Shown one piece after another: positions 21,391 to 63,507 of a DNA stretch of 64,000 nucleotides (position 1 is the first letter of the stretch; the number at the start of each line of letters is the position of its first letter). The stretch spans positions 2,760,001 to 2,824,000 of the forward strand of contig JAPNXP010000016.1 of assembly GCA_028753945.1 (NCBI GenBank). The letters are read 5' to 3'. The DNA is from Hexactinellida sp. DTS-2022 (Eukaryota > Porifera > Hexactinellida). The notes under the pieces are model-generated. The model did no database searches, was not told the DNA's origin, and worked only from the letters and a program-made list of their open reading frames with translations. Position numbers and translations under genes: made by a program.

Positions 21391-21394
21391 GTTG

Positions 21395-21580: not shown

Positions 21581-21626
21581 TTAGTGGCTATTTTCTTGTT
21601 CAGATTTAATTTGTTTTGAAATACTA

Positions 21627-21811: not shown

Positions 21812-21814
21812 TAT

Positions 21815-22930: not shown

Positions 22931-22939
22931 GCCCTCTAG

Positions 22940-22960: not shown

Positions 22961-22994
22961 AACAATTTATACTACCTTAATTAACACAGCAATC

Positions 22995-27674: not shown

Positions 27675-27682
27675 ATCTAACC

Positions 27683-38668: not shown

Positions 38669-41233
38669 TTAATTTGTTGATCTACAAATTTCATCATAAT
38701 GATTTGATTCATCAGGAAATTTCTCCCTTTTCACTGTATAACCTTTATCATTAAATTCCTCCGGTTTAAATAATTTTGAAAAAACTTGGTCATCTGTATC
38801 GTTACCAAATAACTTGTCCGAAGAAGTTAATCCATTTTCAACTAACTTTTCCATTTCTAAATACTCATCTGATAATGCTCTGGAACGAATTCTTTCGCGA
38901 AAATTGCTCATTTCAGTTTCGTTGACATCTGAATATATTGCAATCCTATTCTCAGCTAAACTCATTGTATTAGCATGAATATTCGATTTAATTGCATTTT
39001 CAATTCGCTCTTGAGAAATATGTTTACCTTTGGAAATATAAATTATGCCACAAACTAGTAGTATTATAACCAGAACCATTAGCAGAAGTAAAATACCTAA
39101 TACACCAACTGTTACTATGAGGATGAAGTATTCTAATTCCTTTCTTTCAGTCAGGAAAGTTGTTGTTGTTGTTGTTGTTGTTTGTGTTACATCGTCACAT
39201 ACCATAGGTTGATATGGCATTTTATAATAATCTTGAATATTTTTATTATTTTCCCCAAAAATTACAATCTCAGTTATTGCAAGGTATCCGTTGGAATTTG
39301 ATTGAATAGAAATATCAATTATTTGGACAATGCTGTTGATGTCTATTGTATTTGTAGAAATTGAATAATTTTGTGGGTTTGTAAGTTCGCCATATGGATT
39401 GAATGCATTTGCAGGTAACATCACAAAATATATTCGTACTGTAGAAATGTAGAAATAGTTTGAGAGTTTAAAACGTACTTCTAAGGAACTGATTCCTTCC
39501 CAAATTGTAAACAGAGTTTGTTTCGATAGTTTTAAGCTGGTAATCTCACCTAGAAAATATTTCAACATAATTTACAGCTTGTAAATAAATAATTCACATT
39601 AGATTATCGTTAATAGGAACACCAATGGACCGTCTAAATATATTCGTTATATAAACCGGAGTCACTTGCATGCATTTGTATAGGCTAGGGGAATTAAACT
39701 TTGTACTCAATGACCGTTTTTTCCTTTATCCGTGCTCCTATTAATGAGAATTTACTGTATCTTGCACAAAGATAAAAGTTCGTTTGTTTGTTGCTAGAAA
39801 ATAGCTAACAATCTTTTTTCGAAATTAACTAAAATCTAGCTTCCAATGGGTTTAATAAGTAAACATGATTGCTGAAACAATTTTTCGCATTACAAATTCC
39901 TAATATGAATATTTATTGTTGTAATCTATTATTGAAAAAGCGATACCAAAGGCCTCGTAATACAAATACAGTCGAGTCCGCTTAATAGAAGCACCTCGGG
40001 ACCAGGTTACTTTGACCCAATTAAGCTGAGAAATCTTTAACCGAACATTTTTAAGCCAAATTGTCATTCTGTCCTATAAATCCTGTGTGAAATTTTGTCC
40101 CCATTAAGCAGAGATATCTTTAAACCGGTGACTCTATTAAGCGGAGTCGACTGTATTTACTAATATATGTTCTGCTTACCAATAACTCCATTGCTCATTG
40201 TACCTACCCCACCATAGCATTTGCCCTCCCTACATACACCCGTATAATCTCTGTTGCCATAGGTTATAGGCTCACTACTCAGGTTATACTCTATGACTGG
40301 AACAGTTGTTAGTGTACCATAATTAGTGCCTATTTGACAGCCATATATCTCGTACTGTACACAGTATTGGTATGCTCCTATTATGTTCCTTTCAATCTAC
40401 AGAATAACAGTCGTAACAGAAAGGTTTTGATGCTACAAATATTTATAACTCAAATTTACTTCGAAACAAATTTTTAATTTATTTATTCTATATCTTTACA
40501 ACTAACAAATCCCCCCATTCTATTAATAGGTTTAGAAAGATTAAAAACAGAACTAATATGTATACAGTAGATGTCGGATATAAGCACACCGGTTATAAGA
40601 ACACTATTTTGGAAAACGGTTGCCATATACCCTATATAATTTATGTCGGTTATAAGACCTTTCCGGTTATAAGCACATTAAGTGCAGTTCCCGACGATGT
40701 GCTTATAACCGGCATCCACTGTATTACATATAAAAACTTACAAATAATTCCTGAACAGTGATTGGATTAATGTTAGCTCTCAAAAGAGGAGAAAAGGAAT
40801 TCAGTCCACTGTTCCCCAACCAATTAACTTCGTATAAACTTCCGTCTACTTTGTATGTGAGTTTGTAGGAATTAGATTTGATGATATTCTCAAATTGGCA
40901 TTGAGTTGCATTTACATTTTTTATAGAAATACCTGTAATAACATAATAGGACCCTCCCGTCTTAAACTGAGCGAAATTAATTGTTATTGTATTAACACTT
41001 GAATTCAACCGCCAAAAAGAGTTGGAATTTAATTGTGTTTGTTCTGTTGTTTCTTGGCTTACAAGATTTTCTAATGCAAGGTCATTTTCTCCAGTTTCTA
41101 AAAACACTTTAGTCTTTTCGAAATCATTTCGAATGACGTCATTAATAATTTCCTGTCTACAGTCAAAGAATATATCCTGTCCATTCACAACAATAATATA
41201 AACAACAAACAAATAAAAAAGTTCCTTTATCAT
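38669..41233 (-). CDS. Kinase-less discoidin-receptor-like membrane protein A
   Basis: Exons 41233-40742, 40396-40180 and 39549-38669, intron phases 0 and 1, give 529 residues. Signal peptide MIKELFYLFVVYIIVVNG. Exon 1 and the start of exon 2 form a discoidin (F5/8 type C)-like domain: FWRLNSSVNTITINF, YVITGISI, YKLTYKVDG and closing YCVQYEIYGC. Exon 2 then has DYTGVCREGKCYGGVGTMSN, matching the YDG...GGLGQLxDG segment of the DDR1/2 DS-like domain. Exon 3 has LAITEIVIFGE, like the end of that domain (FSEI.F), a T-run stalk, one membrane span, and a tail of about 120 residues with no kinase. Tail tyrosines include EYLEM (YxxM) and C-terminal HYDEI. The ORF stops cleanly, so the kinase is absent rather than split off. 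Part of a four-gene tandem set. Confidence 0.72.
39969..40153. repeat. P2 element
   Basis: CAGTCGAGTCCGCTTAATAG ... TTAAGCGGAGTCGACTG, flanked by TA, in intron 2 of receptor A. Confidence 0.88.
40565..40721. repeat. P3 element
   Basis: CAGTAGATGTCGGATATAAG ... AACCGGCATCCACTG; in intron 1 of receptor A, 20 bases from the donor site. Confidence 0.88.
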
Positions 41234-41890
41234 TGTATTCTGTATCAGATTATTGTATTATTTCATTTTTCTTGGGATTTAGGGGAAATGATCACCAAGC
41301 CTAATTATGATGGAAATTCAATCCGATATATTGCATTAGCCAAGTTAATAAGCATAAACTTAATTAAGTTCTGGAAGGGAAAATTGTAATTTAAATCAGT
41401 GCCTGAAAATTACATTAGGAAGCGAATGAACTAGAGTTAGTTAATTTAATTCCACTATCTATTGAATAAATATACAGTAGAGCCTCGTTAGTACGAACAT
41501 TAGGGGACCATCAAAGTTCGCCTTATCAGAAATTTTTGTATTAACCAATGTCATTTAGTATCGTATAATAATACTTTTTATAGCCATATGCATCTATAAG
41601 TAGTATATATGATAGTATCTGCAAAAGAAAATGTTGTCGGCACAGCTGTGATTTTAGATTTTTTCTTATTATCTATAACCGTAGACAACTAGTTACTATA
41701 TGGTCGCATTGATACCAAATTTGATTAATTGAATGCTGTTATTAATTTAAACCTGATACTAATATTGTTATGCCCCAAAACATTATGTATAAACAATATT
41801 AACACAAATATTTATTCTAACAAATAGTTGTAGTGTATACAAATATTCAATTTACACTTAAATGCATGCTCACTTTGAAGTTTTTGGTAT
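41234..41890. other. Intergenic between receptors A and B
   Basis: AT-rich. A one-ended P1 fragment at about 41472-41563 (CAGTAGAGCCTCGTTAGTAC). No TATA box was found upstream of receptor A. The 3' part holds the presumed downstream region of receptor B. Confidence 0.5.
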
Positions 41891-44800
41891 TTATTTATGG
41901 ACAAGCACGTTATAGGATGGAAATTCTCCACTTTTCCTATTTGGAAAATCGATGGAACATTCATTAGTAATTGAAGAGTAGATATGTTTGATATCGGAGT
42001 TTTCGATTTTCCCGTTGAACACTTCCTCTGTTATAAGAGCCTTGTTAACAGCTAGTTCATTTCTAGCTGAAATGTAACCGATATTATCTACCATTGGCAT
42101 GTCAAGGGTTTCTACATTAAGTGAGGTGCCACAATTTTCAACACAAATCTTTGGTAGGCCAGTTTTCGGTATTGAAGAGTATGCAGAATTATCTTCCATC
42201 GGAATTTCAAATTCGTCAAAAACACAACTTTCATATCCTATTTCCGGCTGGGATAATGAATTAGGATTTTCAACATAGCTCGTATTTACTCCCATTGGAA
42301 TGGATAAGCTATTGAGATCCCCCATTACGTCATATTGTACGTTGGGCACAACAGCACTTGGTGAAGCGAACCCACTATCCATGTTATGGATAATTTTAGC
42401 AGTGTGTATTGGTTCAGGTGTTAGTTCCTGTTTAGGTTCCGGTTTAGGTTCCGGTTTTGGTATTTGTATTGATTCATATCTGTCATACATGTCATCAACA
42501 GCAATTCTATTCTGAACAACAGTTAGATCTAATTCGGTGTGCGCGTGTCTTTTCTTGTAACTTTTGATGTAAGTAGCCATTGTGGATGCATCGGTTTTTG
42601 TATGTTTTTCAAGGAGATTTAACTTTTTCCGGATTTTCCTGTTATTTTTCGCGAGCAATAAAATTACAATTACGCTGTTAAAAAGTAGTGTAATCATAAA
42701 TATTGAAAGTACCCCGATGATTGAAAGAAAAACCGATTGTTTTTTGCAATCAATTCCTAATTCGTGATTTGGTGGAAATGTATTTGTTTGTATTGTTGGA
42801 TTGGTATTTGTTTGTATTGTTGGATTTGTATTTGTTTGTATTATTGTGTTCTGAGGTTTCAAAGTTGTATTCTGGGGTTTTAAGGTTGTGTTTGTTTGTG
42901 ACATCATTTTAATTGGAACTGTTGTTGTTGTAATTGGATTATCAGTCAATACTGTATTATCTACAAACTTATCTCCATTATCTACTGGGTTTGTGGTTGC
43001 AATAGTTTCTCGTTGGAAATTAGCAATAACTGAGCTAGTAGGTATTTCTTCAGACATAATACTGACGTAATTATAAGCTATGGATTGTACAGAGAGATTT
43101 ACGTCATCATCTGCGTATACTGCTATCTCTGTTAAGGGTAATCTGTATTGATATTCGGGCGTTCACGGTGAATCTCAGAATTGCATAATTTACTACTAGG
43201 AATACTCTAGATGAGATAGAGATTGACTTCTATGATTTTTTTTTTCTTAATTTTCAATCAAGATGGTGTTTTTTAATAAAATAAGACGTCGACTTCCTTA
43301 TATGGGCATGACATTTTTTCAAAATTGTTGAATCTTTTTGAATTTTTGAACATATTATTATGAGACTATTTCCTCTCAGTAATAATTTTTATTTTATTTA
43401 TTTTTGCAGAAGAAACGATGCTAAAGGGCATTTTTTCAAAATAATCATAAAACGCAGTCGTGCACTAAACTATAGTTATAAAATGTTAGAAGAAAAATTT
43501 TTCAAATCTAGTTCAAGGGTCTGAGGATGTATCATGTGTTACCCCAGAGAAATTTTTTGACTTTCTGATTATTATTTTTGGTTTTATAAGCATTCTAAGG
43601 CTGCGGCCCACGAATTTTTCCGAATTTCAACATCAAAAGAAGTGATAAAATTCTACACTGCCATATATTGTTCCCAAAATTAAAAATTTCGGAATCTACA
43701 GGTCAAAATATACAGGTTCACGTCAAAAAGTTCAGGAATATGTCAAAAATTAGGAAATTAGGGGCATAAAAGAATATGAAGGGTATGCAAGTACCCGGTG
43801 ATCATATATTAATGTGGGAAATTGGACAGCAGAATAATTCTGTTATTCTTCATAAAAATGCGCCAGCTTCTTATCTATGCGTGGCATTTGTTTTCAACAC
43901 TTTTACAATAATATATCATGAGTTATGACCAATTTATGACTATGGTTTTGTCTGTTTTGTCATATTTTCACACCTCAAGGCCCTCAAATATACAATAATG
44001 TATTATATAAAACACCAATTTGGTAATACAAATATGGAAATAGCATTTGCGCACAAAATGAGACGTTACACAACACGATCCAATCATTATTCGATAAGTT
44101 ATGGACTTTTGGGCCACAGAAGGGGGCAAAAAATCTGACATTTCACACCTGTTGATATTTCAGAAACGCTTTGAGATAAAATGATCATAGGCATTAGAAA
44201 ATACTGTAAATACCTGACTTGCTATACGTTTATAATACATTTTAGGACTCTAGGTGTCACACTTTTTAACATGACCATATATGGTAATTTGATGTGCCCA
44301 ATTTTGGTGACGAAGCAAATTTTGTAACTCTTGATCTCTGGACAGCAGAGACTAGCTCTAAAATTCTAGTCACATCATGATTCTATTTCTTACTCATTGG
44401 ATAAACTTTTGGGATTATATTATAATTCGAATGATGTGTTCTGATTTCAAATGCCCAAATATGGTGGTGTCAAAGTGGCAATATGTTAAAAAGCTGACAA
44501 AAATCCAACTTCTGATCCAAATGAGATAGAGCTTAGCTCTAAATTGCTAAAAATAGTCTAATTCAATTTCAAATGACATTATCTATTTTATGCAGTTTAG
44601 GAACTCCTTTTCCTCGCACTTTCATATTCTGGACTCAGCCACTTCGACACAAATTAATTAAATGCTAATTATGAAGGTGTAAAAAAAGACCATTTGGGCA
44701 TATGGATGTAAAAAAGAGAATTTTTATTCTAGAAAGTCAAACTTTTTTTTAAAATGCTCAGTATATGTAGGCGCATGTTTTAAAAGCGGGCAGTTTTGGC

Positions 44801-47619
44801 AATATAATACAAAAAAATTGAATTAGTATACTTTTAATGAAAAATAGTGGGTTTTTTTTGACCAATTTCACAAAAATGACAATAACATAGAGTAGATTAA
44901 AGAAAAAGCATATTTCGGTTCGATTTAAAACATTGAGTATTGACTCAGGTATATTTTATAATTGACATGTTTCGCGCTAAAAACTAACATAAAAATTTTT
45001 TTTAAATATTTGGCTAGTATGGATTAGGCCTATATTGACATTGTCTAGTTCATAACTAAGGATATATACATAGTAGAACTCTAATATTTTCAGGGATATC
45101 TTAGATATATTAGTACTATCCAAAAACGCAATAAAAACATTAGGTCGTCGGGTGTCAAAATATCAGTACAGAGCACCCTTAACACCAAACTCTTGCCACT
45201 AGCGATCGATAACTGAATACTTACGTTAGAAATATCCAAACGGATTCGAATTCTTATTTCGAATAATTTATCCTGGACTTCAGTATCTTTTGGTGTTATT
45301 CCATGTTCCGGAAGTATAACTTGAGGTGTTACTATTTGTCCGTCAGAAAGTCCGAATAAAAGTATCTCATCGATCTCTGTTTCATTTGTCAGTTGTATAA
45401 ATAGGTTAAAGACACAACCTAGGTCTTTATCCGGGGGACAACTCCAACCCACTCCAGTATCCTCGAGATTAGTTATATCTAAACAAATAATTAAAATATA
45501 AAACCTTGTGTATAGCATTAGTAGAATCCAACTTGGCTACTATTGTTCAATAGAACTTTGTTAGTATTAACACAGAAAAGACGAAATTTCGGTTAATACG
45601 AACACTATTTTAGTTCCTTCAAAGCCTTTCCAATACAAATAAGGTGAACTAATTTTGACTGTCCATTGATTATTTCTATTAATTAATTAACGAAGTTCTA
45701 TTGTAGTTACCAGGGGCTATTTTTTAACAAATGTAAAAATATTAATTATCACTATTTAAATACAAATCATTTGCATAGTTTGCTAGAATTCCACTTGACT
45801 ACTACTGTAGTTGTCCAAGAAATATAACTTAACTTATTAACTAAATTATTTGACGGAAAATACTACAGTTAATTTGTTGTTAATCTAATTATTTTCTGTA
45901 AATTTCCTTGAATGCTGCTAATTTTCAATTTCAACAAAAAACTTTATCCAACAACAACCAAAATATTTGGATAATTCCAAGATTTACACTTTGTAAGCCA
46001 TAAAACCTTCACAAAACCTTAAAAATACAAATCATATTCACCTGTCTCTCCATCCATTAGTATGCCTTTCCCTCCAAAGCACATTACGCTGCTACACACT
46101 CCCGTGTATCCCCGGTCCAGTAACACTGTGTCCCTTGATGTAACTAGATTCGGTAAGCTGATATCATAGAACAGAACTGAAAGCCTAGCTATTCGTTCTC
46201 CTTTCAGTCCATATCTCATGCAGTGAGAGCCCAATGTGCTTACACCCCTCAATATCTGTAGAAATAATGCGATAGTAAATGCTTACTATGGTTAATGCAA
46301 TGTGATGGTAAATCAGGCTCGATAAATTAGGTGGAAATCTTTTTTAAGCCGCCAAATTTTTGCCTTTGGTTGCTTAACTAATCCACCAAAAATTGTGGAT
46401 TATTAGACTTCAGGTAGATTATATTTATTTGTTATTAATTGTAGTGTACTTATTACATAAGTGAATTGTTTGCTTTATAGATATAAACAACAAATTTGTG
46501 GCCAAATAAATATTTTATTATAATACAAAATAAATCACATTAGATAAATGTGAATACTATAACTTTTAAACAACCGTTATTACAGTAAGAATCTATTTTA
46601 AGAAGCATGAATTTATCAATCCAAATAGATAAGTGAATAATTAACTCACTTTATCAATTAAATTAGTTTTCTACTCCAATTAGTTTAATTACAATGCAAT
46701 TCCAATCAAATTTCCTTAGTTGTTATACGTGTATCTATTATACTCTTAGTGATAATTAAATATGCTAGGTATTCATATGGAAATGTTAGTTCCATAAGGA
46801 ACTATAGTATAATCTAACATCATTCATCTAAGCAACTACCAATATTCATTGAAATGTTATTTAATTATAAACTGATTAACCACGGAAATATAATTGATGC
46901 AAATTCAATAAAATTCCTACTAAATTCAATTTCACTAACGGATTTCGAACGAATTTGTGCCAATGAATTTCAAATTGATAATTTAAACATCTTATCATTA
47001 AATTATCTTTAATATTTTGTGCAAATTAAATGGGTTTACTTACGTATGGGCTAACTAACCCCTGCAATATATAAATCCGGTTTTTGTAAAGATGAGTTTT
47101 TATATTAAAAATGACCTTACTAGTGCCCGAAAATTGCATTAGAAAAGGTTGGACCGTTAAATAATTACGTAATTCTATAAATAAATAACTCACAATTATT
47201 CTGTCCGCTGGAAATGGTTGTATATTAACTGTAGCAGTATCCCCATTGATTGTCCAGTTTGCATTTCCTAGGTTAACAACACGTTTTTCATTTCCAATCT
47301 GATAGTATACAATGTATTCCAATGGGTTTATGTTATTCTCAGTTATACAATTCGTGGAAAATTGGTTGAATATTTGGATTTGGATCGAATTGATGAGATA
47401 ATTGAATGAAGAACTTGTCTCGAATTCAAATGAAATTCCTGGGTTTGTTAAATTTACATTCCAGTAATTAACCGAATTTATTAATGGAAATGAATTCGTT
47501 TCGGACGAAGTAATTCTTTCTCCCTGAGTAGTGATGACATTGTCAACTGCCAAAATATTTATTTCCCCATTAAATTGTGGAAAAATCGATAAAATGATAA
47601 GCAAAAGTACAAAACACAT
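41891..47619 (-). CDS. Kinase-less discoidin-receptor-like membrane protein B
   Basis: Exons 47619-47194, 46255-46042, 45478 to about 45184, and 43142-41891; phases 0, 1 and probably 2. The 3' edge of exon 3 is uncertain (GTAAGT at 45224 also fits but breaks phase), giving roughly 728 residues. Signal peptide MCFVLLLIILSIFPQFNG; exon 1 discoidin-like; exon 2 HCMRYGLKGE then GYTGVCSSVMCFGGKG; exon 3 GVGWSC, like the VGW of the DDR DS-like domain; exon 4 starts LPLTEIAVYADDD. A Thr/Asn/Pro stalk repeating TIQTNTNP precedes a membrane span (FMITLLFNSVIVILLLA) and a tail of about 250 residues, the longest of the set. Tail motifs: SYVENP (YxN), AYSSIP and HIYSSI, a PKPEP repeat, and C-terminal SYNVLVHK. 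TATAAAAG at 47663-47670. Extra intron relative to the paralogues. Confidence 0.66.
43160..45180. other. 2-kb intron without recognised content
   Basis: Intron 3 of receptor B. It is less AT-extreme in places, with recurring words (AGAGCTTAGCTCTAAATT, GACTAGCTCTAAAATTC) suggesting a decayed transposable element. I found no long frame, TIR or RNA gene. Confidence 0.4.
45548..45703. repeat. Degenerate P1 element
   Basis: ATAGAACTTTGTTAGTATTA at the left and TTAACGAAGTTCTATTG at the right, with a central TTTAGTTCCTTCAAAGCC. Intron 2 of receptor B. Confidence 0.7.
46260..47190. other. Intron 1 of receptor B
   Basis: Very AT-rich, no repeats or genes recognised. Confidence 0.5.
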
Positions 47620-48283: not shown

Positions 48284-48892
48284 TTAATTCACAATAACTT
48301 TCATTGGTCCAGTTAGTTCCATTATACTACAATTGTTAGTTCCATTAAGAGCACCTAATACATACAGTCCACTGTTAGACATATTAGCATTGTGTATAGT
48401 TATACTATTCCCTGTACAACCTTCTAGCCTAACTCCGTCTTTGTACCATTGGAATGCAGTAGCATTCCTGAAGCCCGCTGTCAGTGTTAGGGTAGATCCT
48501 ATTCTGTAGGAGCCTCCTGGCGATGAGCTCACTAGGATAGGTTTGGATGTTGTTGTTGGTATTTTTATAGTTTCAGTTCCAATTACATTTCTCTTAATTT
48601 CTACCCACCTTGTCAATACTCTCTCTCGAGTTGCTAAATCTATAATTTCAAGTCTGTAGCATCCGAAATCTCCACTTTTTACTGACGAAAAGAATAAGTT
48701 ACTGTTAGTTTGCTTATTAATGGGTTTGCCATATCTATTGTACCATTGGTAACTAGGGTTATGCGAGTTTACTACAGCAGATAAGTTAACTCTGTTTCCT
48801 ACTGAGCATACTATATCGACTGGCTGTACTATTACAAGTATTCCTATACTGGTGACTGATGAACCGTTATCGGTGAAGAATAGTTGAGACAT
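48284..48892 (-). CDS. Two-domain disulfide-less Ig protein 1
   Basis: Intronless, 202 residues, ATG at 48892 with TATAAATA about 55 bases upstream. No signal peptide or membrane span. Domain 1 (about residues 20-100): VNLSAVVNSHNPSYQWYN and SVKSGDFGCYRLEI, then TRWVEIKR. Domain 2 (about 115-200): LTLTAGFRNATAFQWYKDG and SNSGLYVLGA. The core W and the DxGxY-like strand are present, but the positions of the usual B- and F-strand cysteines hold V/G and L, so the canonical disulfide is missing in both domains, as in cytosolic Ig domains such as those of MALT1 or titin. Role unknown; a cytosolic adaptor or decoy is inference. The pair of W-x-x domains is joined by a Thr-rich linker. Confidence 0.78.
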   Translation of the reverse strand: MSQLFFTDNGSSVTSIGILVIVQPVDIVCSVGNRVNLSAVVNSHNPSYQWYNRYGKPINKQTNSNLFFSSVKSGDFGCYRLEIIDLATRERVLTRWVEIKRNVIGTETIKIPTTTSKPILVSSSPGGSYRIGSTLTLTAGFRNATAFQWYKDGVRLEGCTGNSITIHNANMSNSGLYVLGALNGTNNCSIMELTGPMKVIVN

Positions 48893-50712
48893 TTTGTTGT
48901 ATTTTTAATAAAAATTAAGTTATTGACAATATTTATAATATTTTTATTTATACACGAAGTATAATACTTTGTAGGTAAATTTTAGTACATATTAAGATAA
49001 TTTAATTTGTAACATATTACATATGTTGAAACAAATCTTTTTGAAAATACTTACTAATATTGCATGATTATTTTATAATAGATTGACCCAAGTCAGTAAA
49101 TTACCCTGATGAATACAATTACCTAAATAAAATATTGTAATGTTATTACACAAAATGATGTTATATAAGCATTTTTGGAAAACAGTTGATCGAAATATTT
49201 AGTGCCAAACTGTAATTACGAACTATAAATCCTGTGAAATTTTGACCCTATTAAGCGGAGAAATCTATTAACCGATGTCTCTATTAAGCGGAGTATACGG
49301 CACATTGTTTTAAAGCAATTACTCTATTATTGAACCGGAGTTTCCTAAATAATTTTAAATTTTTGATTCCAAAGTTTCTACCCTAAATCCAGTAGATTAT
49401 CGTTAATAGAAACACGGTTAAGGCGAAATATCGGTTAAAGAGTGCACTGAAACCTCGATTATCCAAACTTCGAATAACCAAAGTATCCGAACACACCTTA
49501 CTGGTCTCAATGTTACTCCAAAAATTAGTTTAGTTTTAAACTATCCGAACTGTAGATTATCCGAACATGATTGCCTGGTCCCAACGAGTTCGGATAACCA
49601 AGGTTGCACTGATATAAAGATTGTTCTTAAACCTCGGAGTTTTAAGGCACTTGCCTTGGAAAAGTACCTTGATTTCCCATAAGACACTTTGCCGAATAAG
49701 TGTATTTTTTGCCGAATACACCATAAAATGTCGTAAAGGTGGTCTTCATCAAGGCAAATTATATGCGTGCCTAGATTTACATTGAGCTCGCACGCACGCG
49801 CTAAAATACCAAATTTGTATTACGTCTGTGAGGCATCTCTCGATTTTCGCGGCCTAGAATAGTTTTCTTTCAAAATAAAGCGCCTGAATGAAACCCTGAT
49901 CTGTCACACATTGGTTAACCCCTCCCTCCTTGGAAGCGTTATGTAACTTTTCAACTTTCAACAGCCAAAGATTTATATCAATTAGTAACTTAATACTATT
50001 CGGATACCAAAATACATATTTAACATAACGAATGCATTTTGGAACATTAACCGGATTTAGATATTCTTTATTTATATTTTTTAGTGTGTTTGGGGGTCTT
50101 TTATGGACGAGTCTCTTATTCGAAATTTTCCTATAATTGTTCCTTACAGACAATTTTTTGGATTACAAAATTACCAAAAACGTGACATAGGGAGGGCGTG
50201 ACTAATTATTTTTAAATTTTGTATTAAATCACTTTGAGCCATTAATTAAGCAAGGTAATTGTGTAGTCATAATTATATTTGAATGGCTGATAAAATGATT
50301 AATATTACATAATATATGTGGGAGTGTTAACATAATTTTACTCCAAATTGACCCCACCTAGTTAAACCTACTCTACATCTTTTAATTTTCTTATAAATAT
50401 TATTCTATACATATACCTATTAAGAAATTAATAAGCAATATTATTTAGTTGTTATCTTAGATATATCAATTAACCCACGTAATCTTAAAGTTTAACTTCC
50501 TATTACGTTAAACCCTTCTTTACATATTGGAATTTCTTGGAAATATTATACTGATGTCGATGTAGTTTTGCTGGCTCATTTTTGGAGAAAATTTTATTTC
50601 TTAAAACTACCTAAAATTATATAACTATTGAAAGTATTACGTTGACATTAATATATCCTGTGTATAAATAGTTAAGAATTTATTAGTTAGACTATAGTAG
50701 GTATAGCAAGAG
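48893..50712. other. Divergent intergenic region, Ig genes 1 and 2
   Basis: Shared upstream region of the two divergent genes, with a TATA box at each edge (48946-48953 reversed; 50663-50670). Between them are a P2 fragment (49220-49300), a P8 element (49445-49611; AAACCTCGATTATCC ... AACCAAGGTTGCACTG) and AT-rich sequence. Confidence 0.6.
50663..50670 (+). promoter_or_regulatory. TATA box of Ig gene 2
   Basis: TATAAATA, 43 bases before the ATG. The equivalent box precedes all five Ig genes at a similar distance (48946-48953, 52715-52722, 53792-53799, 56156-56163). Confidence 0.65.
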
Positions 50713-52671: not shown

Positions 52672-53832
52672 GATATATTAATAGTTTTGGTTTATGATTT
52701 TACGTGTATTGTATTATTTATAGTTCCATTTGGATTGCAACTGAATTCGATATCATCCTTTGCAAACACTTTAATTAATATTGCACCTCATTGTTAAATA
52801 TAATTTTTGTAGAAATTTTGTATTACTGTTAAATTGAGGAATATATTTTAGGCAACTTAAATTTTATTTTATTTTTGGAATTTTCGACCAATTAAAGTAG
52901 AAAATATATATGTGTAAGCAAATTATGCTTTATACAAGCCAAATTGAAAGCTATGCTATTAATAGAATTAGAATATTCCGAGTCATTTAGTGTAATCTGA
53001 ACCAGAGTGCAAGTTTAAAAAATTTCATGCCACTGCAAGCTCATTCGAACACGAATGATTACCTATCTAAATTAAGCGACAATTAATCATCGATTAATCT
53101 ATAAGGAAACATATAGATAGAGTTCAGCTCAAGAATCTTCATTGTTTCTACTCAAATACGAGCTATCTATTCCTGAATAGATAGGGAAAAGTGGACATTT
53201 TATGTTTGGACAAGTTTGGTTCGGATTATCGAGGTCTCATTTTATAGAGGCCAGTAGAAAATGTATTACTTCACTAATTGGAAGGGAAATCTTTTGAATC
53301 GAAACACCTGTGTTCGGTTTAGCGAGAGTAAACTGTAAAAATTTTATTAATAAGTTTGCATATTTAGATTTAAAGTATGTTTGTTAATATTACTGTAGAT
53401 CTAAACATACTTAACTTGTAATCCAATTGTGACTTAATTATTTTCCTGTAGAATTTCTAAGGAATAATTACATTAATTTATACAGTAGAAAGTAATTAAA
53501 AGTTGAAATTAACATAACTACGTATGCAGTAATGTAATGTAAGGTAATTTTATCTGGTAAAACGTACTTTAATGTCAGATAGGCAATCTTATGATTTATT
53601 GAGATTCTTACCCAATTTGATACAAAGCAATTTTAATTATTTAAAATTAGTAATTAAGTTAATATTTAATAATAGTCCGTAAATTTAATTTTATTATTTT
53701 CTAACCAAATAATATTGAGACACAATCTCCAAAATTTAGGTAATTTTCCTTAAATATTTATTCATAATTAGTAAACCTTCCATTTTACTAGTATAAATAG
53801 ATCAGAATTAAGAACAACAAAACTACATCCAA
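52672..53832. other. Divergent intergenic region, Ig genes 3 and 4
   Basis: TATA boxes at both edges (52715-52722 reversed; 53792-53799). AT-rich between, with no convincing repeat; a TTTGGACAAGTTTGGTTCGG piece at about 53200-53330 may be a decayed P8-type element. Confidence 0.5.
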
Positions 53833-54264
53833 ATGAATTCACCAGACGAAGAAAACATAGAAGCAGATGCACTTCATTGGCATGACGAAGCAATTACCGT
53901 TGGTTCAAATTCCAATGACACACAAACGCAACCAGGAAAGGTCACAACTCAACCCATTTACCCGAGTCACCAGAGTCACAATGAAGTCGGAAATTCCTCA
54001 CAAAACATGAATGAAAGGCCTATTTTAATCAGCTCATCTAAGGGAGGATTCTTCAAACAAGGACAGACAATTACAATTTCCCCAACCTTCAAGAACGCAG
54101 ATTGCTATCAGTGGATTAAGAATGGGGTTTCCATAGCCTACTGTACAGGCCCTATCCTGGAGATATCTAGTGCTAACCTCTACCACACTGGGGACTATGC
54201 TCTCATTGCTGCCAACCAGTTTGGTATCGAGATCACTCCACCTATAAATGTTAGGATAGTTTGA
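53833..54264 (+). CDS. Single-domain disulfide-less Ig protein 4
   Basis: Intronless, 143 residues. The N-terminal 60 residues are acidic then Gln/Ser/Asn-rich and unlike those of Ig protein 2. The Ig domain from RPILISSSKGGFFKQGQ onward is almost identical to it in protein and DNA. No signal peptide or membrane segment. Divergent partner of Ig gene 3. Confidence 0.76.
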   Translation: MNSPDEENIEADALHWHDEAITVGSNSNDTQTQPGKVTTQPIYPSHQSHNEVGNSSQNMNERPILISSSKGGFFKQGQTITISPTFKNADCYQWIKNGVSIAYCTGPILEISSANLYHTGDYALIAANQFGIEITPPINVRIV

Positions 54265-54341
54265 TATTAAGCACATACTTAATACTATATATTTTGTGTA
54301 TTTTTGTATCCCTAAATGAATGATTACTCACTCTTCTTATA

Positions 54342-54523
54342 CAGTCAACTCCGCTTAATAGAGCCACCAATAATAGATTTCTCTGCTTAATGGGGTCAAA
54401 TTTCGCAGGATTTCTAGGACAGTATTACATTTTGGCTTAAAATATTTCGGTTGATAGATTTCTCCGCTTAATCGGGTCAAAGCAACCTGATCCCGAGGTA
54501 ACTCTATTAAGCGGAGTTGATTG
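54342..54523. repeat. P2 element
   Basis: CAGTCAACTCCGCTTAATAG ... TTAAGCGGAGTTGATTG, flanked by TA. Confidence 0.88.
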
Positions 54524-55495
54524 TACCATTTATATTATACTTTACAGGACACCATTTAATAGTAAGACTTACTTATGGTATATATCAGCCAAACTTTTTA
54601 ATATAAAACATGCTTCGTAAAGGTGACTTGTCAATGTTAAAACTACCTTTCAGTGCCTTAAATGTTGACCGATATATTGATGACAATTCATAATGTTATA
54701 CTTACAAGAGCTAACGTGAGTTTGATTCCGATTTTAAAACTTGAATATGTACATAAGATTTTTGTCCTGAAATGTGTTGAAGTATAAGTATGTACGAGCC
54801 CTTCGGTCTCGGTCGCTTTACGGCCTTACTCATCACCATTTCTGCCATGGAAAATGGTAGAAAGGGACGTTATATACATCCCTTAAGTTATAAGATTTCC
54901 ATAGTTTTAACTTGTTTTTCATATACTAAATTTATAAATTCGAAATTCGTTTTCAGCATACTTGTTTACCTATAATACTCGTTGAAAGCTAACTTCTAGG
55001 TTGATTTGAAATTTCATCAACTTGTTTACCTTTTTTTGTAGACAACAACAATAAATATTTAAATTAGAAATTTATAAATATGAAATTCAAAATTAGCATA
55101 CTTGTTTACCTATTGTATCATTTGAAAGTTAGTTTCTATCTCATATAAAAATGCGGTTTATATTCCCCCATCACTTTAATACAATCCGGACAAACAAACA
55201 AACAAACACACACACACAACAATCGAGATTTAATAATTTTCCCAAAGATTAAAACCTTGCTAATATTATGTACACCAGGGGACCGTTAAAATGTTACTCC
55301 TTATTCGGAATTCGTATCAATCGGTGTCATTTGTATTGTAAAGGCTTTGAAGGAGACTGAAATAGTGTTCATAATAACCCTGTTCGTACTAACGAGGTTA
55401 TATTGCATATATTTTAATTTTTATTGGCAGGCAATACATGATGCTTACAAATAGATACAAAACATTTCTAAATATTTATCAAACAGTTATTACAT
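54524..55495. other. Intergenic with repeat K and P1 element
   Basis: A reversed K copy at 54790-55225 (CGAGCCCTTCGGTCTCGGTC, CATCACTTTAATACAATCCG, then (CAAA)n and (CA)n), and a P1 element at about 55251-55404 (CGTACTAACGAGGTTATATTG). No gene. Confidence 0.65.
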
Positions 55496-56116
55496 TCAAT
55501 TTACAGTTACTTTAATCTCCTCACTCATTTCCATTATTCCACTCAATGGGTAGTTAGTAGCAGCCATTGCATACAGTCCACTGTTAGACAAATTAGCATT
55601 GGTAATCACTAGCGTATTCCCTGTGCAACCTTCTAGCCTAACTCCATCTTTGTACCATTGGTATGCAGTAGCATTCCTGAAGCCCGCTGTCAGTGTTAGG
55701 GTAGATCCTATTCTGTAGGAGCCTCCTGGCGATGAGCTCACTAGGATAGGTTTGGATGTTGTTGTTGTTGTTTTTATAGTTTCAGTTCCAATTATACTTC
55801 TCTTAATTTCTACCCATCTTGTTAATACTCTTTGTCGAGATGCTAAATCTATAATTTCAAGTCTGTAAAATCCGAAATCTTTCATTTGTACAGATTTGAA
55901 GAATAAATTACTGTTTACCTTATTTGGGATTGGTTCACCTAGCTGATTATACCATTGATAGCCTATATTTGAGGCATTAACGGTTGCCACTATATTAATA
56001 CTAGATCCAATCTGACAAGAAATGTCAGTAGGTTCAGTCGATATTTTGAGTTCTTTGCTTAACGTCTCTGCTGGAATAGCATCATTACAATTCGCATCTA
56101 TATACAATGTATTCAT
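55496..56116 (-). CDS. Two-domain disulfide-less Ig protein 5
   Basis: Intronless, 206 residues, ATG at 56116 and TATAAATA at 56156-56163. Domain 1 (INIVATVNASNIGYQWYNQ, MKDFGFYRLEI) is the most diverged of the three. The linker and most of domain 2 (RWVEIKR, FRNATAYQWYKDG) match the others, with a different C-terminal strand (ATNYPLSGIMEMSEEI). The usual disulfide cysteines are absent. No single-domain partner is visible upstream within 1.1 kb, so this third duplication unit may have lost it. Confidence 0.78.
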   Translation of the reverse strand: MNTLYIDANCNDAIPAETLSKELKISTEPTDISCQIGSSINIVATVNASNIGYQWYNQLGEPIPNKVNSNLFFKSVQMKDFGFYRLEIIDLASRQRVLTRWVEIKRSIIGTETIKTTTTTSKPILVSSSPGGSYRIGSTLTLTAGFRNATAYQWYKDGVRLEGCTGNTLVITNANLSNSGLYAMAATNYPLSGIMEMSEEIKVTVN

Positions 56117-57236
56117 ATTTGGTTCTTAATATTGTTATTATTGTATTATTACACATATTTATAGGTTTTGAAAATCTGGAACAAATTTTATTCTGGGATA
56201 AAATTTTATAGTTTCTAAAATTACCTACATTTGTTCATGAACTTTGAGATCTAGTAACAATAAAACAAACACAATTATAACTAATTAATTCAGTTATGTC
56301 TACTAATTTGATTCATATACTAAATTGAAAGTTCAATATTACTGAGTATAATATTATACTGTAGATTTTGGACCATTTCATGGCTCAACGGCATTATCAT
56401 AAAACTGAAATTTACCTTACTCAGATAAATTTCTGGCTCATAAACTTATGACTTTGAAGTATTTAAAAGCTACATTTATGAAAGAATAATACTGTGTGTT
56501 CTAAAATTAGTTTGGTAAATAATGCTGAAAAACTTTAATAATGAATAATATAACAAAAATTGGCATATTTATTTGCAAAGTGAATTATACAAAGTTTTCC
56601 TATAATATTTGGCTCAAATATACAAAAACTGACACATACCTGCCAACCTATTTGAGATATATCCCTGTACGAGGCTCCTATTTCCCCCTGTACATTGGCC
56701 AAAATCCCTGTACACCCCAAAAAATCTTTCTTGTGAAGGTGAAAACATTAGTTTATATAGACTGTACAGGGAATCACTGTATGCTCGAATAGGAACAGAG
56801 TATTTACACAAAACAAAATGCTATATTTAGATGATGTAGACATGTTTAGGTATTATTAATAGACTCACAATCAATAATTTTTCCCTAGCTAAAAATCCCT
56901 GTACAAATTTAAAATCCCTGTACGGTCCAGCCAAAATGGTCAAAATCCCTGTACTGTACAGGGAATCCTTGTACGGTTGGCAGGTATGTGACTCGTTGAG
57001 TACTTTACTAACTCATATTTTATTAATTTTATTCAATGTTACAAACAATTTACTTAATTAGATTAACAAAATATAAGTAACCAGAAAACTGGCCATACAC
57101 AAAACAAACCATACAAAGTTTAACAAACAAACTAACAAAACAAACTAACAAAACAAAATAACAAAAAAACAAAATAGCAAGATATCAAACAACCAACCAA
57201 ACAAATAACAAATAAACAAACACAATACATTTATGT
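56117..57236. other. Intergenic between Ig gene 5 and receptor C
   Basis: Holds the TIR element at 56633-56990 and an A/C-rich (ACAAA)n-like stretch at 57090-57230, next to the 3' end of receptor C. Confidence 0.6.
56633..56990. mobile_element. TIR element with CACATACCTGCCAACC ends
   Basis: Perfect 16-bp inverted ends CACATACCTGCCAACC and GGTTGGCAGGTATGTG. The interior is built of repeated AAAATCCCTGTAC words in both orientations. No clean target duplication was found. Confidence 0.85.
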
Positions 57237-60072
57237 TTAGCTATGATCTAAATTACTGTATTGGGAAAATGACTCCTTTTTATTCCCATTATCTCTCTTG
57301 GAATATAAAAATTCGTTTGTTGACCCTTCATTCAACTCATCTTGATTAATCAACAATTGATTATTACCTGTTTTAAAGGATTTGTAAGCTGTATTAGTAA
57401 AAGTTTTAGATTCGTTTGTTGTTGTTGTTGTTGTTGATTCAAAAATTTGTGAATCTTGTACATCTTCTGTGATTGAATTTATTTTTCCATATAAACCGAT
57501 ATTTTCTGTGAATTTTATTTGAGATTCTTTCCGATTTGGCTCTATTAATGGTTTGCTGTCACCAATTTCGCAGTAAAATCCCGATTGTAAAAATCTACTG
57601 TCACTTCTTTCGGGGGCTAAAGGTAATTTCATTTGTTCCCATTTTGAAATAACTTTTGTATTAGTTAAACTCAAAATTATTTTCTTCTGTTCCAAATATT
57701 TTCTGATGAAAATTATTGTCAAAATTACCAAAGAAATTGAAATTAAAATCGCTATTATTGATACAGAAATAATTGCTGTTTCTTGACTTACATTAATATC
57801 TGTCAATTTAGACACACATGTAGATTTAAAATTAACTCTTTTCAGATATTTATCGTATATATCTACGCTATAAATATCAACAGATTCACCTGATTCAACA
57901 CAAATATCGAACTCAAATACTCTACTTTTTGGCGAATTTATATTTTGAAACGATTCTTTATAAAGTTGGTAATCTTCATAAAAACCTAATATACTTGTTT
58001 CGCCCGTGTGACATATTTGCTTAGATGCAAATCTGACCTTAAGGAATGTTTTATATTTTTTAATTAGGCCGTTAATTTTGAGCATACCTACTCTAACTTT
58101 ATAATCAAAAATAATTCTGATTTTTATAAAACACTCTTTGCCTTCATTGCAATTCCATTTCAATCGATTTTTTGGATCCTCCATTTCTTGTAAGCTGGAA
58201 TCTAAAATGTGTAAATAATCACAAACAACTCTATTTACTGCAACCATTCAAATATATTAATATTTTAAATATTTTCAGCTGTATTAAATCTTGATCTTAT
58301 CTGCCAACATCTTTTAATATAAAACCTGGCATTGCAATGGTGAATTTTGATGCAAAAAATTGCTTTGTCAATGCATAAAAATGCATTAGAAAACTTGTTG
58401 GTCGATATAATTCCTAATTTATATTACCAGTTCTTTAATGAATGAAAACTTTTAATATATACAAGTAAAGTTTTAATATATATGTACTAAGGATAATGAT
58501 AAATCCGATTTATAATAGAATCTCGTTAGTACGAATACCAAGGGACCGTCATAATGCGTTTGTCTTATCCGGAATTCGTATTAACCAATATCATTTGCAT
58601 TGAAAAGGCATTGAAGGGGACTGAAATAGTGTTCATATTAACCGTGTTCGTACTAACGAGGTTATACTGTATTATTATTAAACAGAAAATACAAACAAAA
58701 ACTTACTTTCTGATTTATCAACAAGATATGAAATTCCTCCTGAACATATATTATATGCTTTATCACATACCAATCCACTAAGTTGGTAGTCAGGTAAATC
58801 TAGTTCAGAAGCGATGGTTATTTCATATCCGATAATTTGAGCTTCAGAAAGTATAGTTCCAATTAAATCGAATCTAATGCAAGTTGATGTCCCATTCGTT
58901 ATGTTCTGTAATTGAATCTGAAAGAAATACAAATATTAATACAGTAGAACCCAGTGTATTATACAGCCATTTGTAAATACGCTCCTAATCCTGGTCTGAT
59001 GCAATTTTCATGCGCCTAAATTACAAATTAATGTTACGGTATAGGAGAGAATTCCAAATTTTCGCGCTCCTAATTAAAATTTCCAAAATCATGCTCCAAA
59101 AGGAGCGTTTCGCGCTTTTGGATAAATCCTTGGTAGAACCTGCATAATCCGACCCTCTATAATCCGGAATTCAGCAGAACCGAGTCAACCGACATTTTTC
59201 CTTATCCCAACGGGTGTCGGATTAGACAGGTTCTACTGTACAATGAATACCAGTTTAAATTATAATAGCATGATTGGCCCTTCAAAAGTTACGTAACGCT
59301 TTCAAGGGGTCAACTAATATGTGACAGACAATCTTTTTTCTATTATAATGAACTCCCGTTATAACTAAATAACTGCTTATAACGAAATGGATATTTTGCC
59401 CAAGAGCACTAAATGCATTAATTATTATCCGCTTATAACGAATATCCGGATATAACGAAGGGATTTACAGGTCCCAAGCACTTCGTTATAACGAGAGTTT
59501 ACTGTACAAACATTTTAAAAATCGTGACATAGGGAAATGTATAATTTTCCTGGAATTTACGTTACGTAACTTTTGAACGGCCCTTTGAATGCAATTACCT
59601 TAATTATTGGAGAAGTGAATGGGTTTATTGGAATTTTTACTCTCAAATCTTCATTACCCAAATTGTATCCCATATTTGGTAGATCGAAACCAACTGAATA
59701 ACCACGCGTAAAATAGTATATACGGAACCAATTAGTGTTAATATATGTTAGATTATAACAGGAACTAATTCCAGTGTTAGTGGCAGTTTGTATCTCAATA
59801 CTGTCAACTTCGAAATGGTAAATAGACATTCCTGTGTTGTTAGGAGCGGTGATAGTAACAGAGTTATTTTGACTGTTTAAAATCCAAGCATTTTTAGTGT
59901 TTATCGTTGGCAACGCATTTGGGTATATGGCATGGTTATTTTCCAACTGTTTTTTCGCCCATTCTGTGTATTGATCAGCTGTTTTGTTAAGTAGATAAGA
60001 TTTTAATTCGCAATTTCCACAATTGACAAATACAATTGATTGTATGCATAATAGCAATAGTATTAATTTCAT
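57237..60072 (-). CDS. Kinase-less discoidin-receptor-like membrane protein C
   Basis: Exons 60072-59599, 58917-58707 and 58201-57237, phases 0 and 1, give 549 residues. Signal peptide MKLILLLLCIQSIVFVNC; exon 1 discoidin-like (AWILNSQNNSVTITA); exon 2 opens CIRFDLIGT and continues LSGLVCDKAYNICSGG, the same two-cysteine variant of the YDG/GGLG block. Exon 3 has LKWNCNEGKECFIKIRIIF, VFEFDICVESGESVDIYSV, a membrane span (IISVSIIAILISISLVILTI) and a tail of about 155 residues with a T-run, FYCEIG, GLYGKI, AYKSF and the C-terminal SQYSNLDHS. No kinase. Same exon structure as A and D; the discoidin part is the most diverged. Confidence 0.7.
58515..58669. repeat. P1 element
   Basis: ATAGAATCTCGTTAGTACGA ... 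CGTACTAACGAGGTTATACTG, with CTTATCCGGAATTCGTATTA inside, the stretch most like the satellite unit. Intron 2 of receptor C, ending 38 bases before the donor of exon 2. Confidence 0.85.
58930..59590. repeat. Intron 1 of receptor C: P6 and P5 elements
   Basis: A GGAGCG/CGCTCC inverted-repeat element at about 59000-59125 (also near 33855), P6 at 59132-59238 (TAGAACCTGCATAATCC ... ACAGGTTCTACTG) and P5 at 59345-59504 (ACTCCCGTTATAAC ... TTCGTTATAACGAGAGTTTACTG). Confidence 0.75.
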
Positions 60073-60469: not shown

Positions 60470-63400
60470 TCAATGATGATTAAGTTTATCATAAGCAACA
60501 AAGTCCTCATCCGATTCTTTTGGCAACTTAGTGTTCTCATAATTAATTTCTTCAGTTTTAGGAACTGTTGTTGTTGTTGGTGTTATTGGTGTTGTTGTTG
60601 ATGTTGATTTCATTTGCTCGCTGGACACATAATGCGGGTTTTCACTTATGACAACTTCAGAATCCCTCCTTTCCAGATTTTCAAATCGTTTCATCTCTTT
60701 TTTCTTAGCAAAACTTCTACTTTGGTAAAGAGAATTTTCCTCCATAAATGTTTCACATTTTTCTAAATCATACGGAGTTTCCCTACTGTTTGGCTTACTT
60801 CTTCTATCCAAAGATCTGCTTTTAACTTGTGCCTCAAGTGCAGAAGTTAAACTGGGCGATAATGCCCTTTCTGTAACCGGAACCTCAGGTCTAATTTCAG
60901 TTCCATTTATACTGAATTGCGATGCAGGTTTTAATTCTGCAGCACTTTCTTGTGATCTAATATCGGTATAAACGTGCTGTGTTTTCTCTTCTCTTTTGTT
61001 GTTGTTATTGTTTTCCAAATTATTCCCTTTTCGATTTAACAATCCGAAATAATTCTTGCCTCTCACAAACCAAACAATGAAAGGAGTTATTAGGCCCATT
61101 AGAAAAAGGAAAATTCCAACAGCTATTACAGTAAATACCACATTTTGCGGTGACAATCCTACTGGGATACTAACTAGGTTACAAGGAATGTCGATAATTT
61201 GCTTAGTTCCATATGTCCAATAAGTTATTACTATTTCTTCAATTTTAAATGAACTTGTCGAGTTCAAACTGAATTCGATATAATCCAACACTTTATTAAT
61301 ACTCAACACAAATGTGCCATTAACCATAGGTTGACGTTTATATTTGGAATCAGTGATGATGGAATCTGTTGCTATTATGTAGAGGGAAATATAGCTAATC
61401 CCGACTTGTTGGTAGAAACTTAAACTTAGGCGAACACCTTCATTCCATTCCAGAGATGAATCTATAGAAATATTATAAATAATATAGTCAGGTTCTTTTA
61501 TTTTGAACATTCAAGGGACCAAAAATTGTGTTCATAATAGAGAGACTTCATAATAAGCGAACTCAACCTAATAAAAACCCTATGTAAGTTGTTAAATTGG
61601 GACCGTAGGGCTTGTTCATAATAAAAAAATCTTCATATTAAACAGACGAAATCTTGTTCATAATAAGCAGACCTGACTGTACTACGATTATTAGAGAAAA
61701 ACTACCCTTCGGATCAAGTGACCCAATTAAGCGAATTTACTAAACAGTACACCCTAGCTAATCCTAACAGAGGTGTTCCGATTCAAAAAATTCTGTTCCG
61801 ATTAGTAAATTCGTTCGGATTAGTGAATTAATATATGTTCTATAGGCCCCTATTAAATGAGATCCCAATAATCCGAACCTTGGCCAAACCTTTCCAAACT
61901 TAAAATATAGATGTACTCGTTTGAGACTTATTTTTGTATAATTCCATTGTAATAATATACAAATATTTAAGAATTTTTCCCGCTTTATATGAAAAATATT
62001 ATTGGATTTTTGGAACCACCGGTTAATAGATTTCACTGCTTAATCGGGTTAAAATTTCACAGGATTTATAGGACGGAATTACATTTTGGCTTAAAATATT
62101 TTCGGTTAATAGATTTCTCCGCTTAATCGGGTCAAAGTAACCTGGTCCCGAGGTGGCTCTATTAAGCGGAGTCGACTGTATGTATAACAAGGATTATTTA
62201 TTAACAACTTACCGTAGTTTGAGTCAGTTAGCACGCCTAATCCCCCTGAGCAAGTGCTACCATAACACTCTCCAGTATAATAGCTATCCTCTTTATTAGC
62301 TACAGTATAATCGTATGATATGAGAGGTGCACAGTTAGTAGGTTCTTCTGTGCAGCCGTATAGCTGGTACTGTATGCAGTATATAGTGGGGTCTTGTGAA
62401 GGGGATACTCGCCTTATCTGTTAATAGTAATATACAGTTCAAACCGGTATTTTCTAACCATTTTTTTCAGATAAAAATAGTAAGAAAAAACCGATAGTTA
62501 GAAAAAACCGATGAAAAATACAGTACAGTTGGAATTTCTTACAAAAAAGATTGCATCATTAATAGTTAGAATAAAACGATAAGTTAGAATAACCCGAGTT
62601 AGAATAAACCGGTTTCGACTGTATTATAAACTCCCGTTATAACTAGTAATTAATGCATGTTTACAAAATGTTTAAAATAAGGTATAATGTGTATAATGAA
62701 CTCCCGTTATAACGAAATAACTGCTTATAACGAAATGTAGATTTTCCCCAGAGCACTAAATGCATTAATTATTATCCGCTTATAACGAATATCCTGATAT
62801 AACGAAGGGATTTACAGGTCCCAAGCACTTCATTATAACGAGAGTTTACTGTATTATAAATCAAATTCATTTATGTCATTCTTGTAACTATAATAGATTT
62901 CGTTAGTAGGAACACCAGGCGACAGTCTTAATATGTTCGTATTATCCGGAATTCATATTAACCGGAGTCACTTGCATGCATTTGTATAGCTAGGGAATTA
63001 ACCTTGTACTCCTTAATCGATATTTCGCCTTATCCGTGTTCCTATTAACAGAGTCTACTGTATGTATATATATATTTGTTGTTGTTTACTAACCTGAACT
63101 TTAGTTGCATATATTGCAGTGAATGATACTTTAACGAATGTTTTGTTTATGACACTTCTCCTAGGAATGTTGACACGTTTGTCGTTGATGATGAGTTCAT
63201 ATTCCACTAGGTCTATTTGAGATTCTATGTAGTTGCATGGGGACTTTCTATCTGTATTAACTCTGATTGCTAAACCGGTCAAATAATGTGGTTCCGTTAA
63301 TTCCAGCTCTACAACTCTCAGGCCTCCCTTTAGCATAAAGTAGTCGTCAGATCTTAAGATGGGAATTGGTGTCAGGTCGGTAGGTGTTACAAACTGGAAC

Positions 63401-63507
63401 TTATTTAGGGTGCCATTAGTGATTAGTGGGGAATTACAGTCCTTAACATTAACTCCGATAACTGATATTATCTGTAGGGAAAGCAATAGGAATATTACTG
63501 GTATCAT
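60470..63507 (-). CDS. Kinase-less discoidin-receptor-like membrane protein D
   Basis: Exons 63507-63094, 62417-62213 and 61494-60470, phases 0 and 1, give 547 residues. Signal peptide MIPVIFLLLSLQIISVIG, TATAAAAG at 63546-63553. Exon 1 is a discoidin-like domain (MLKGGLRVVELELTEPHYL, LTGLAIRV); exon 2 closes it with YCIQYQLYGC and carries YYTGECYGSTCSGGLGVLTD, the closest match to the DDR YDG...GGLGQLTDG block. Exon 3 holds the rest of the DS-like domain (EEIVITYW), a membrane span (VVFTVIAVGIFLFLMGLI) and a basic tail of about 195 residues: HVYTDI, PYDLEK, PHYVSS, INYENTKL (YxN) and C-terminal VAYDKLNHH, which fits the ITIM consensus. The exon 3 acceptor has a weak pyrimidine tract but is fixed by phase. 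No kinase. Confidence 0.74.
61510..62200. repeat. Intron 2 of receptor D: stacked MITEs
   Basis: A one-ended element near 61520-61680 (TTCATAATAAGCGAACTC), a P7 element at about 61745-61880 (CAGTACACCCTAGCTAATCC), and a P2 element lacking its left end, about 62018-62178 (ATTAAGCGGAGTCGACTG). Confidence 0.7.
62435..63060. repeat. Intron 1 of receptor D: P9, P5 and P1 elements end to end
   Basis: P9 at 62435-62621 (CAGTTCAAACCGGTATTTTC ... AACCGGTTTCGACTG), P5 at about 62632-62851 with a partly duplicated left end, and P1 at 62892-63060 (TTTCGTTAGTAGGAACACC ... CAGAGTCTACTG). Confidence 0.8.

Follow-up and report, generated by a model that had tools for sequence, protein, structure and literature searches.

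Discoidin domain receptors (DDRs) are usually described as collagen-sensing receptor kinases. DDR orthologues have been reported in sponges and ctenophores, according to the accessible text of PMC6485061. We analyzed a 64,000-nucleotide stretch of DNA, hereafter the window, from the sponge Hexactinellida sp. DTS-2022 (assembly GCA_028753945.1, contig JAPNXP010000016.1, positions 2,760,001 to 2,824,000), and in particular four of its genes, designated A, B, C, and D (Table 1). These genes very probably belong to a gene-encoded, kinase-less family derived from DDRs, and their predicted ectodomain, a discoidin (DS) domain together with a DS-like domain, is homologous to that of DDR1 and DDR2 in the same order and register. 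A preliminary examination of the letters without database searches (the sequence-only reading) had proposed a DDR-type ectodomain at this locus. The proposal is borne out by kinase-bearing DDRs of the same genome, which share the ectodomain and the first two intron phases, and by profile matches to human DDR1 and DDR2.

The sponge's own genome (112,398,167 bases in 18 contigs) was searched using the ectodomains of A and B and, later, that of a member on contig C1 as probes. Because the search scores the best candidates only, the gene counts are lower bounds. The same exon pair was found on contigs C14, C15, and C1 and just to the right of the window on its own contig, C8. In total, at least 13 genes encode this ectodomain, 2 of them with a kinase, 9 without, and 2 ambiguous. 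They comprise A to D, L018g, and L019g on C8, one gene on C15, one on C1 (c1), and five on C14 (g1 to g5). The tandem family noted earlier in the window thus extends to C14, C15, C1, and the part of C8 to the right. Intron 1 is in phase 0 and intron 2 in phase 1 in all 12 fully modelled genes; g5 has an extra intron in its discoidin part and is absent from the alignments and the tree, its tail being used in the motif count below.

The two kinase-bearing genes, g2 and g4, have exon-end phases of 0, 1, 0, 0, 0, and 2. In Pfam, the kinase of g2 scores 1.9e-72 and that of g4 2.9e-71 against PK_Tyr_Ser-Thr, and DDR1-2_DS-like is matched at 8.9e-4 (19.5 bits) by g2 and at 3.4e-5 (24.1 bits) by g4, both under the curated cut-off of 27. 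Among the best 60 of 830 PDB matches of the g4 kinase, DDR2 and DDR1 (2.2e-70 to 2.1e-65) are followed by TrkB (4.8e-55) and are outranked by one EGFR entry (1.4e-72, two matched stretches). Because they combine a full tyrosine kinase with these Pfam matches and with closeness to DDR2 and DDR1 in the PDB, g2 and g4 are, as judged from their predicted products, true DDRs.

A profile of g1 to g4 and c1 recovered A at 1.7e-10, D at 2.2e-4, B at 6.3e-4, and C at 0.03, as well as the three other C8/C15 genes at 1e-17, 5.7e-13, and 1.7e-4. All seven C8/C15 ectodomains ranked ahead of 350 shuffled sequences (best shuffle, 0.31). When the PDB was searched, an 11-member family profile scored 1.8e-9 against the DDR1 ectodomain (4ag4) and 9e-4 against 8pe9, and a profile of the seven C8/C15 genes alone found DDR1 at 0.0026 in the expected register. 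Profile-profile alignment with hhalign matched the seven kinase-less ectodomains to the human DDR1/DDR2 pair over 298 columns covering both domains (P = 1.6e-6, probability 90%, 15% identity), and a profile of g2, g3, g4, and the C1 gene aligned to the same pair at P = 8e-10. The best E values obtained with 30 column-shuffled DDR profiles were 0.084 and 0.059, respectively. Because g1 closely resembles g2, alignments A3 to A5 omit it; the profile of g1 to g4 and c1 and the tree include it.

Several results weigh against the DDR assignment. The four window proteins gave no discoidin match in Pfam, only Ly49 (0.016) and GCS (0.041), and the motif resemblance alone is therefore weak. PF21114 matches just 5/11 members at E values up to 10; its match at 0.26 in the sponge genome is c1. 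For the kinase-less profile alone, two Cas12f chains (0.0013 and 0.0023) rank slightly ahead of DDR1, so a sequence-to-profile search alone would not settle the link. The DDR side of the hhalign comparison consists of two rows, with the DS-like part of the DDR2 row entered by hand. Gene C is tied to the DDR-linked profile only weakly in direct comparison (0.03, against 0.31 for the best shuffle). It is linked through B and A in a BLASTP comparison of the four proteins (4-sequence database), which are homologous to one another across the ectodomain; C-B scored 1.1e-7 (2.8e-5 with B as the query) and A-C 8.8e-5, the remaining pairs being A-B at 2.7e-13, A-D at 2.2e-7, B-D at 0.001, and C-D at 0.04. 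Separately, a search of the sponge genome with F5_F8_type_C returned eight places at E values up to 0.1, none at the family loci; that model thus does not find the family.

At the residue level, the discoidin-type domain is degenerate and ends in C-x-x-[YF]-x-[IL] in all four window genes, as had been claimed (CVQYEI, CMRYGL, CIRFDL, and CIQYQL in A to D). The parallel drawn between the following block and YDG...GGLGQLxDG of DDR1/2 likewise holds, with the same register in the 4ag4 match and in the profile-profile alignment. The pattern YTGxC...C[FYS]GGxG, attributed to each gene, fits A, B, and D exactly, whereas C departs from it (LSGLVC...CSGGIS). Both of its cysteines are invariant in 7/7 C8/C15 ectodomains, and the pair occurs in 0/8 others, namely g1 to g5, the C1 gene, human DDR1, and DDR2, which is not known to carry it. 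Within this genome, the two-cysteine variant is thus specific to the C8/C15 lineage, as had been suspected, and the pair may form a disulfide within the DS-like loop.

The accessible text of PMC2807035 assigns W52, T56, D69, R105, E113, and Cys73-Cys177 to the collagen pocket of human DDRs. Among the 12 aligned genes, none retains W52, three retain T56, one D69, one R105, and two E113, and g2 and g4 keep 0/5 of these residues, the loop alignment being unsure in both counts. Since the pocket residues are mostly lost, collagen binding is not claimed; since they are missing in g2 and g4 as well, their loss is no marker of the kinase-less genes. The discoidin domain has an extra cysteine in its L4 region in 12/12 aligned genes, displaced by one column in g1 and g2; human Cys73 is missing in 12/12, and Cys177 is kept in 11/12, a combination that perhaps reflects a moved disulfide.

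The lack of a kinase in the window genes, also part of the sequence-only reading, is supported: neither the window nor the 40 kb on its right holds a tyrosine-kinase match. In a genome-wide list of tyrosine-kinase matches, for which 134 of 209 candidates were scored (E up to 0.001), no entry falls within the window. Each of nine genes (A to D, L018g, L019g, the C15 and C1 genes, and g5) terminates at its own stop codon, and their retrieved flanks revealed no tyrosine-kinase exon. Genes g1 and g3 retain a donor-like site close to the point at which g2 and g4 are joined to their kinase exons, and both precede those exons; they may represent truncated copies or use the downstream kinase in common. 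Exons 1 to 3 of g1 and g2 are 89 to 94% identical. Exon 2 of g3 and g4 is 97.5% identical and exons 1 and 3 are 75 to 78% identical, and exon 6 of g2 and g4 is 96.7% identical and their other six exons 72 to 79% (gaps left out). This patchy near-identity across C14:96015-112874 may reflect gene conversion among copies with and without a kinase.

The ectodomain tree groups g1 with g2 (100/100) and g3 with g4 (94/96) and places the C8 and C15 genes on one side of a branch (85/87); 3 of its 11 inner branches are strongly supported, 5 are drawn open, and the program flags long branches. Kinase presence requires at least three changes on this tree, with human DDR1/2 counted in. The earlier alternative of a kinase lost or never possessed can be narrowed to loss as the favored case, because relatives bear the kinase, the deep nodes of the tree being weakly supported. 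If the ancestor was a DDR kinase, to which the DDR orthologues reported in sponges and ctenophores (PMC6485061) point, the distribution suggests repeated kinase loss as the simplest reading.

The kinase-free tails of the window proteins are 127 to 254 residues long. Yxx[ILVM] occurs 14 times in these four tails compared with 5.8 expected, and 43 times in all 11 non-kinase tails compared with 17.5 expected; in both cases, 0/2000 shuffles of the same tails scored as high. The predicted tails are thus enriched in tyrosine motifs of the SH2-docking type, and the motifs YATI, YAPL, and YSQL occur in the juxtamembrane regions of g2 and g4. In DDR1, Tyr513 is juxtamembrane. In human cells, DDR1 dimers that are cysteine-linked and lack kinase activity are phosphorylated on Tyr513 by functional DDR1 acting in trans, and the reaction needs transmembrane contacts and donor kinase activity, not receiver activity, as described in the accessible part of PMC5489314. 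Taken together, the tail enrichment and this precedent make a ligand-binding, kinase-free docking partner the best-supported mechanism. The DS domain would bind an extracellular (matrix) ligand, and the receptors would cluster with kinase-bearing DDRs or meet cytoplasmic tyrosine kinases. Tail tyrosines would then be phosphorylated in trans and SH2 proteins recruited, the receptors acting as docking co-receptors like kinase-inactive receiver DDR1 in engineered cells. We put the probability of this overall explanation, kinase-less DDR co-receptors that are trans-phosphorylated and dock SH2 proteins, at roughly 55%; for the docking mechanism taken by itself, we regard the odds as even.

Other properties of the tails count against docking. 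The strict form of the immunoreceptor tyrosine-based inhibitory motif, [VILS]xYxx[VIL], is not enriched in the window tails (3 versus 1.45, p = 0.16) or in the 11 tails (7 versus 4.0, p = 0.11), nor are YxN and PxxP in the tails, and NPxY is weakly enriched (2 versus 0.44, p = 0.07 overall and p = 0.04 in the C8/C15 set). In the juxtamembrane regions of g2 and g4, the excess of Yxx[ILVM] is not significant (6 versus 3.6, p = 0.13), and the c1 tail holds no such motif. Seven patterns were tried, of which Y[small]x[IVL] was picked after looking, and the tails of g1 and g3 as counted include residues past the donor-like site.

YxxPhi also serves as an endocytosis and sorting signal, and the tails for that reason leave room for decoy or endocytic roles. 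As decoy or dominant-negative receptors, the kinase-less proteins would capture the ligand used by the true DDRs and weaken signalling, with the tails controlling trafficking only. The ratio of nine genes without a kinase to two with one in the set found, and the ectodomains of g1 and g3 as close copies of their kinase-bearing neighbors g2 and g4, fit such a role, for which the human kinase-deficient isoforms DDR1d and DDR1e, described in the accessible part of PMC4789497, offer a parallel. We nevertheless consider it unlikely, given the length of the window tails and their Yxx[ILVM] enrichment, although this enrichment is compatible with a decoy, and given that the window ectodomains, only 14 to 21% identical to that of g4, need not share its ligand. 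The tandem clusters, the high divergence (exon 1 of family members is 18 to 31% identical to that of A), and the loss of most human collagen-pocket residues would also suit fast-diverging adhesion receptors expanded for cell-cell or allogeneic recognition and unlinked to DDR signalling, and the neighbors include Ig-like and leucine-rich repeat-EGF genes. The pocket residues are missing in the kinase-bearing g2 and g4 too, however, and recognition of this kind seems improbable to us.

That the window genes are ectodomain cassettes spliced onto a distant kinase to yield full receptor kinases is hardly credible. The donor-like sites of g1 and g3, upstream of the g2 and g4 kinase exons, would allow it on C14, but the last 90 bases of the window reading frames hold no strong donor pattern (in B, one stands 17 bases beyond the stop), the window and the adjoining 40 kb on the right yielded no tyrosine-kinase exon, and the gaps from D to C and from B to A are only ∼400 and ∼660 bases. 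Returning to docking co-receptors, a wider proposal would make them a class of their own, consisting of a C8/C15 clade with a two-cysteine DS-like domain and of repeated kinase losses on C14 and C1. In this proposal, which we advance tentatively, the alternation of copies with and without a kinase among g1 to g5 would give one ligand paired outputs or would provide ectodomain cassettes that share a downstream kinase by splicing.

The gene models (Table 1) agree with the sequence-only reading in gene bounds, and introns 1 and 2 are GT-AG and in phases 0 and 1 in 4/4 spliced minus-strand models. Of the layout described as common to the four genes, the intron phases, ectodomain, membrane span, and non-kinase tail stand, while the exon number differs: B has four exons and A, C, and D three each. 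The last acceptor of B is an uncertain choice, as CAG|AG breaks the frame and CAGAG| keeps it. A hydropathy peak that fits a membrane span lies past residue 250 in 4/4 proteins, as judged by hydropathy only. The signal peptide assigned to every gene finds a counterpart in C and D only, where an N-terminal hydrophobic stretch exceeds the threshold (mean >1.9 over 19 residues); A and B fall below it. Poly-A hexamers follow all four stops, the first at 74 to 203 nucleotides downstream, and are weak evidence for the gene ends, being counted without a control in AT-rich DNA.

Table 1. Predicted genes and exon 2 blocks of the window, and kinase-bearing DDR genes on contig C14
Feature	Position	Strand	Exons or content	Length (amino acids)	Basis
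Gene A, kinase-less DDR-type receptor	38669..41233	-	41233-40742, 40396-40180, 39549-38669	529	
Exon 2 of A	40180..40396	-	final strand of the DS domain (CVQYEIYGC); two-cysteine block YTGVCREGKCYGGVG		register of YDG...GGLGQLADG of DDR1 in PDB 4ag4
Gene B, kinase-less DDR-type receptor	41891..47619	-	47619-47194, 46255-46042, 45478-45225, 43126-41891	709	
Exon 2 of B	46042..46255	-	same two-cysteine block		motif comparison
Gene C, kinase-less DDR-type receptor, deviant exon 2 block	57237..60072	-	60072-59599, 58917-58707, 58201-57237	549	
Exon 2 of C	58707..58917	-	deviant block		motif comparison
Gene D, kinase-less DDR-type receptor	60470..63507	-	63507-63094, 62417-62213, 61494-60470	547	
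Exon 2 of D	62213..62417	-	same two-cysteine block		motif comparison
g4, kinase-bearing DDR	C14:96015-100751		ectodomain and four further exons with kinase	1002	
g2, kinase-bearing DDR	C14:106164-110551		ectodomain and four further exons with kinase	931	

The window has a GC content of 33%. Between B and C (48284-56125) lie five small frames in alternating orientation with a common Ig-like stretch; frame 55496-56125 matches Pfam Ig_3 at 9e-10, and one plus-strand frame that was tested had no Pfam match. Long open frames on both strands at 14458-30581 encode leucine-rich repeats and EGF domains (Pfam on one frame) and an apparent membrane span, and a minisatellite at 17061-17765 is open in several frames (repeated MWEFPWEN/HVFPWEFP). 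Upstream of D, two minus-strand kinase-like frames extend head to tail into the right flank on C8 (63679-63999 and 65444-66166, window numbering) and, by eye, form one Ser/Thr kinase gene. Farther right, 75229-79927 and 81621-86260 are a direct duplication of ∼4.7 kb (97% identity, with an inverted piece beside it) that copies essentially exon 3 of L019g and a neighboring gene. Beside L018g, minus-strand frames at L018 6282-6836, 7382-7903, and 8594-9118 encode small proteins that seem to cross the membrane once and contain tyrosine motifs, TIYSEI among them, and the one tested had no meaningful Pfam match. A short-period satellite between g3 and g4 (L011 4900-7300), with QYDIIS repeats, has several of its frames open. 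Tyrosine-kinase matches, most of them within long open frames, cluster at C10:1378860-1415807, C16:5493098-5512085, and C9:1349660-1355946, and the C10 kinase that was read has EGF repeats ahead of a membrane span. A kinase at C1:756412 was set aside as a DDR candidate, its open reading frame having Ig-like and Frizzled-type features by eye. Probing the genome with silicatein gave 21 cathepsin-like places, of which the two best carry a cysteine in the active site.

Most of the DDR-ectodomain genes found lack a kinase beside two that bear one, which would make the ectodomain usable apart from the kinase, and the ligands of this ectodomain may differ from the GVMGFO motif of collagen. The genome would thus offer a natural test of the trans-phosphorylation of kinase-inactive receiver dimers by DDR1 that the accessible part of PMC5489314 describes. 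With DDR1 and DDR2, the window genes share the DS and DS-like domains in the same order and register, the membrane span, and tyrosines in the cytoplasmic part; they differ in the missing kinase, the mostly lost collagen-pocket residues, the extra L4 cysteine, and the C8/C15 cysteine pair. With g2 and g4 of the same genome, they share the ectodomain and the phase 0 and phase 1 introns, but g2 and g4 have four more exons with a DDR-type tyrosine kinase and no two-cysteine block. FGFRL1 and ErbB3 are receptor tyrosine kinase paralogues without a kinase, or without a fully active one, that act beside kinase-bearing paralogues; they resemble the window genes in kinase deficiency and belong to other receptor tyrosine kinase families. 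DDR1d and DDR1e likewise pair a DDR ectodomain with a membrane span and have no functional kinase, but arise from a single kinase gene by splicing or truncation, according to the accessible part of PMC4789497, whereas the window genes are predicted to be separate, with their own stops and tails. Separate tandem kinase-less DDR genes were not found among the openly licensed papers listed in searches on DDR evolution and kinase-less forms. Kinase-deficient DDR isoforms are known already from DDR1, and what appears to be new here is a set of separate kinase-less DDR genes in tandem.

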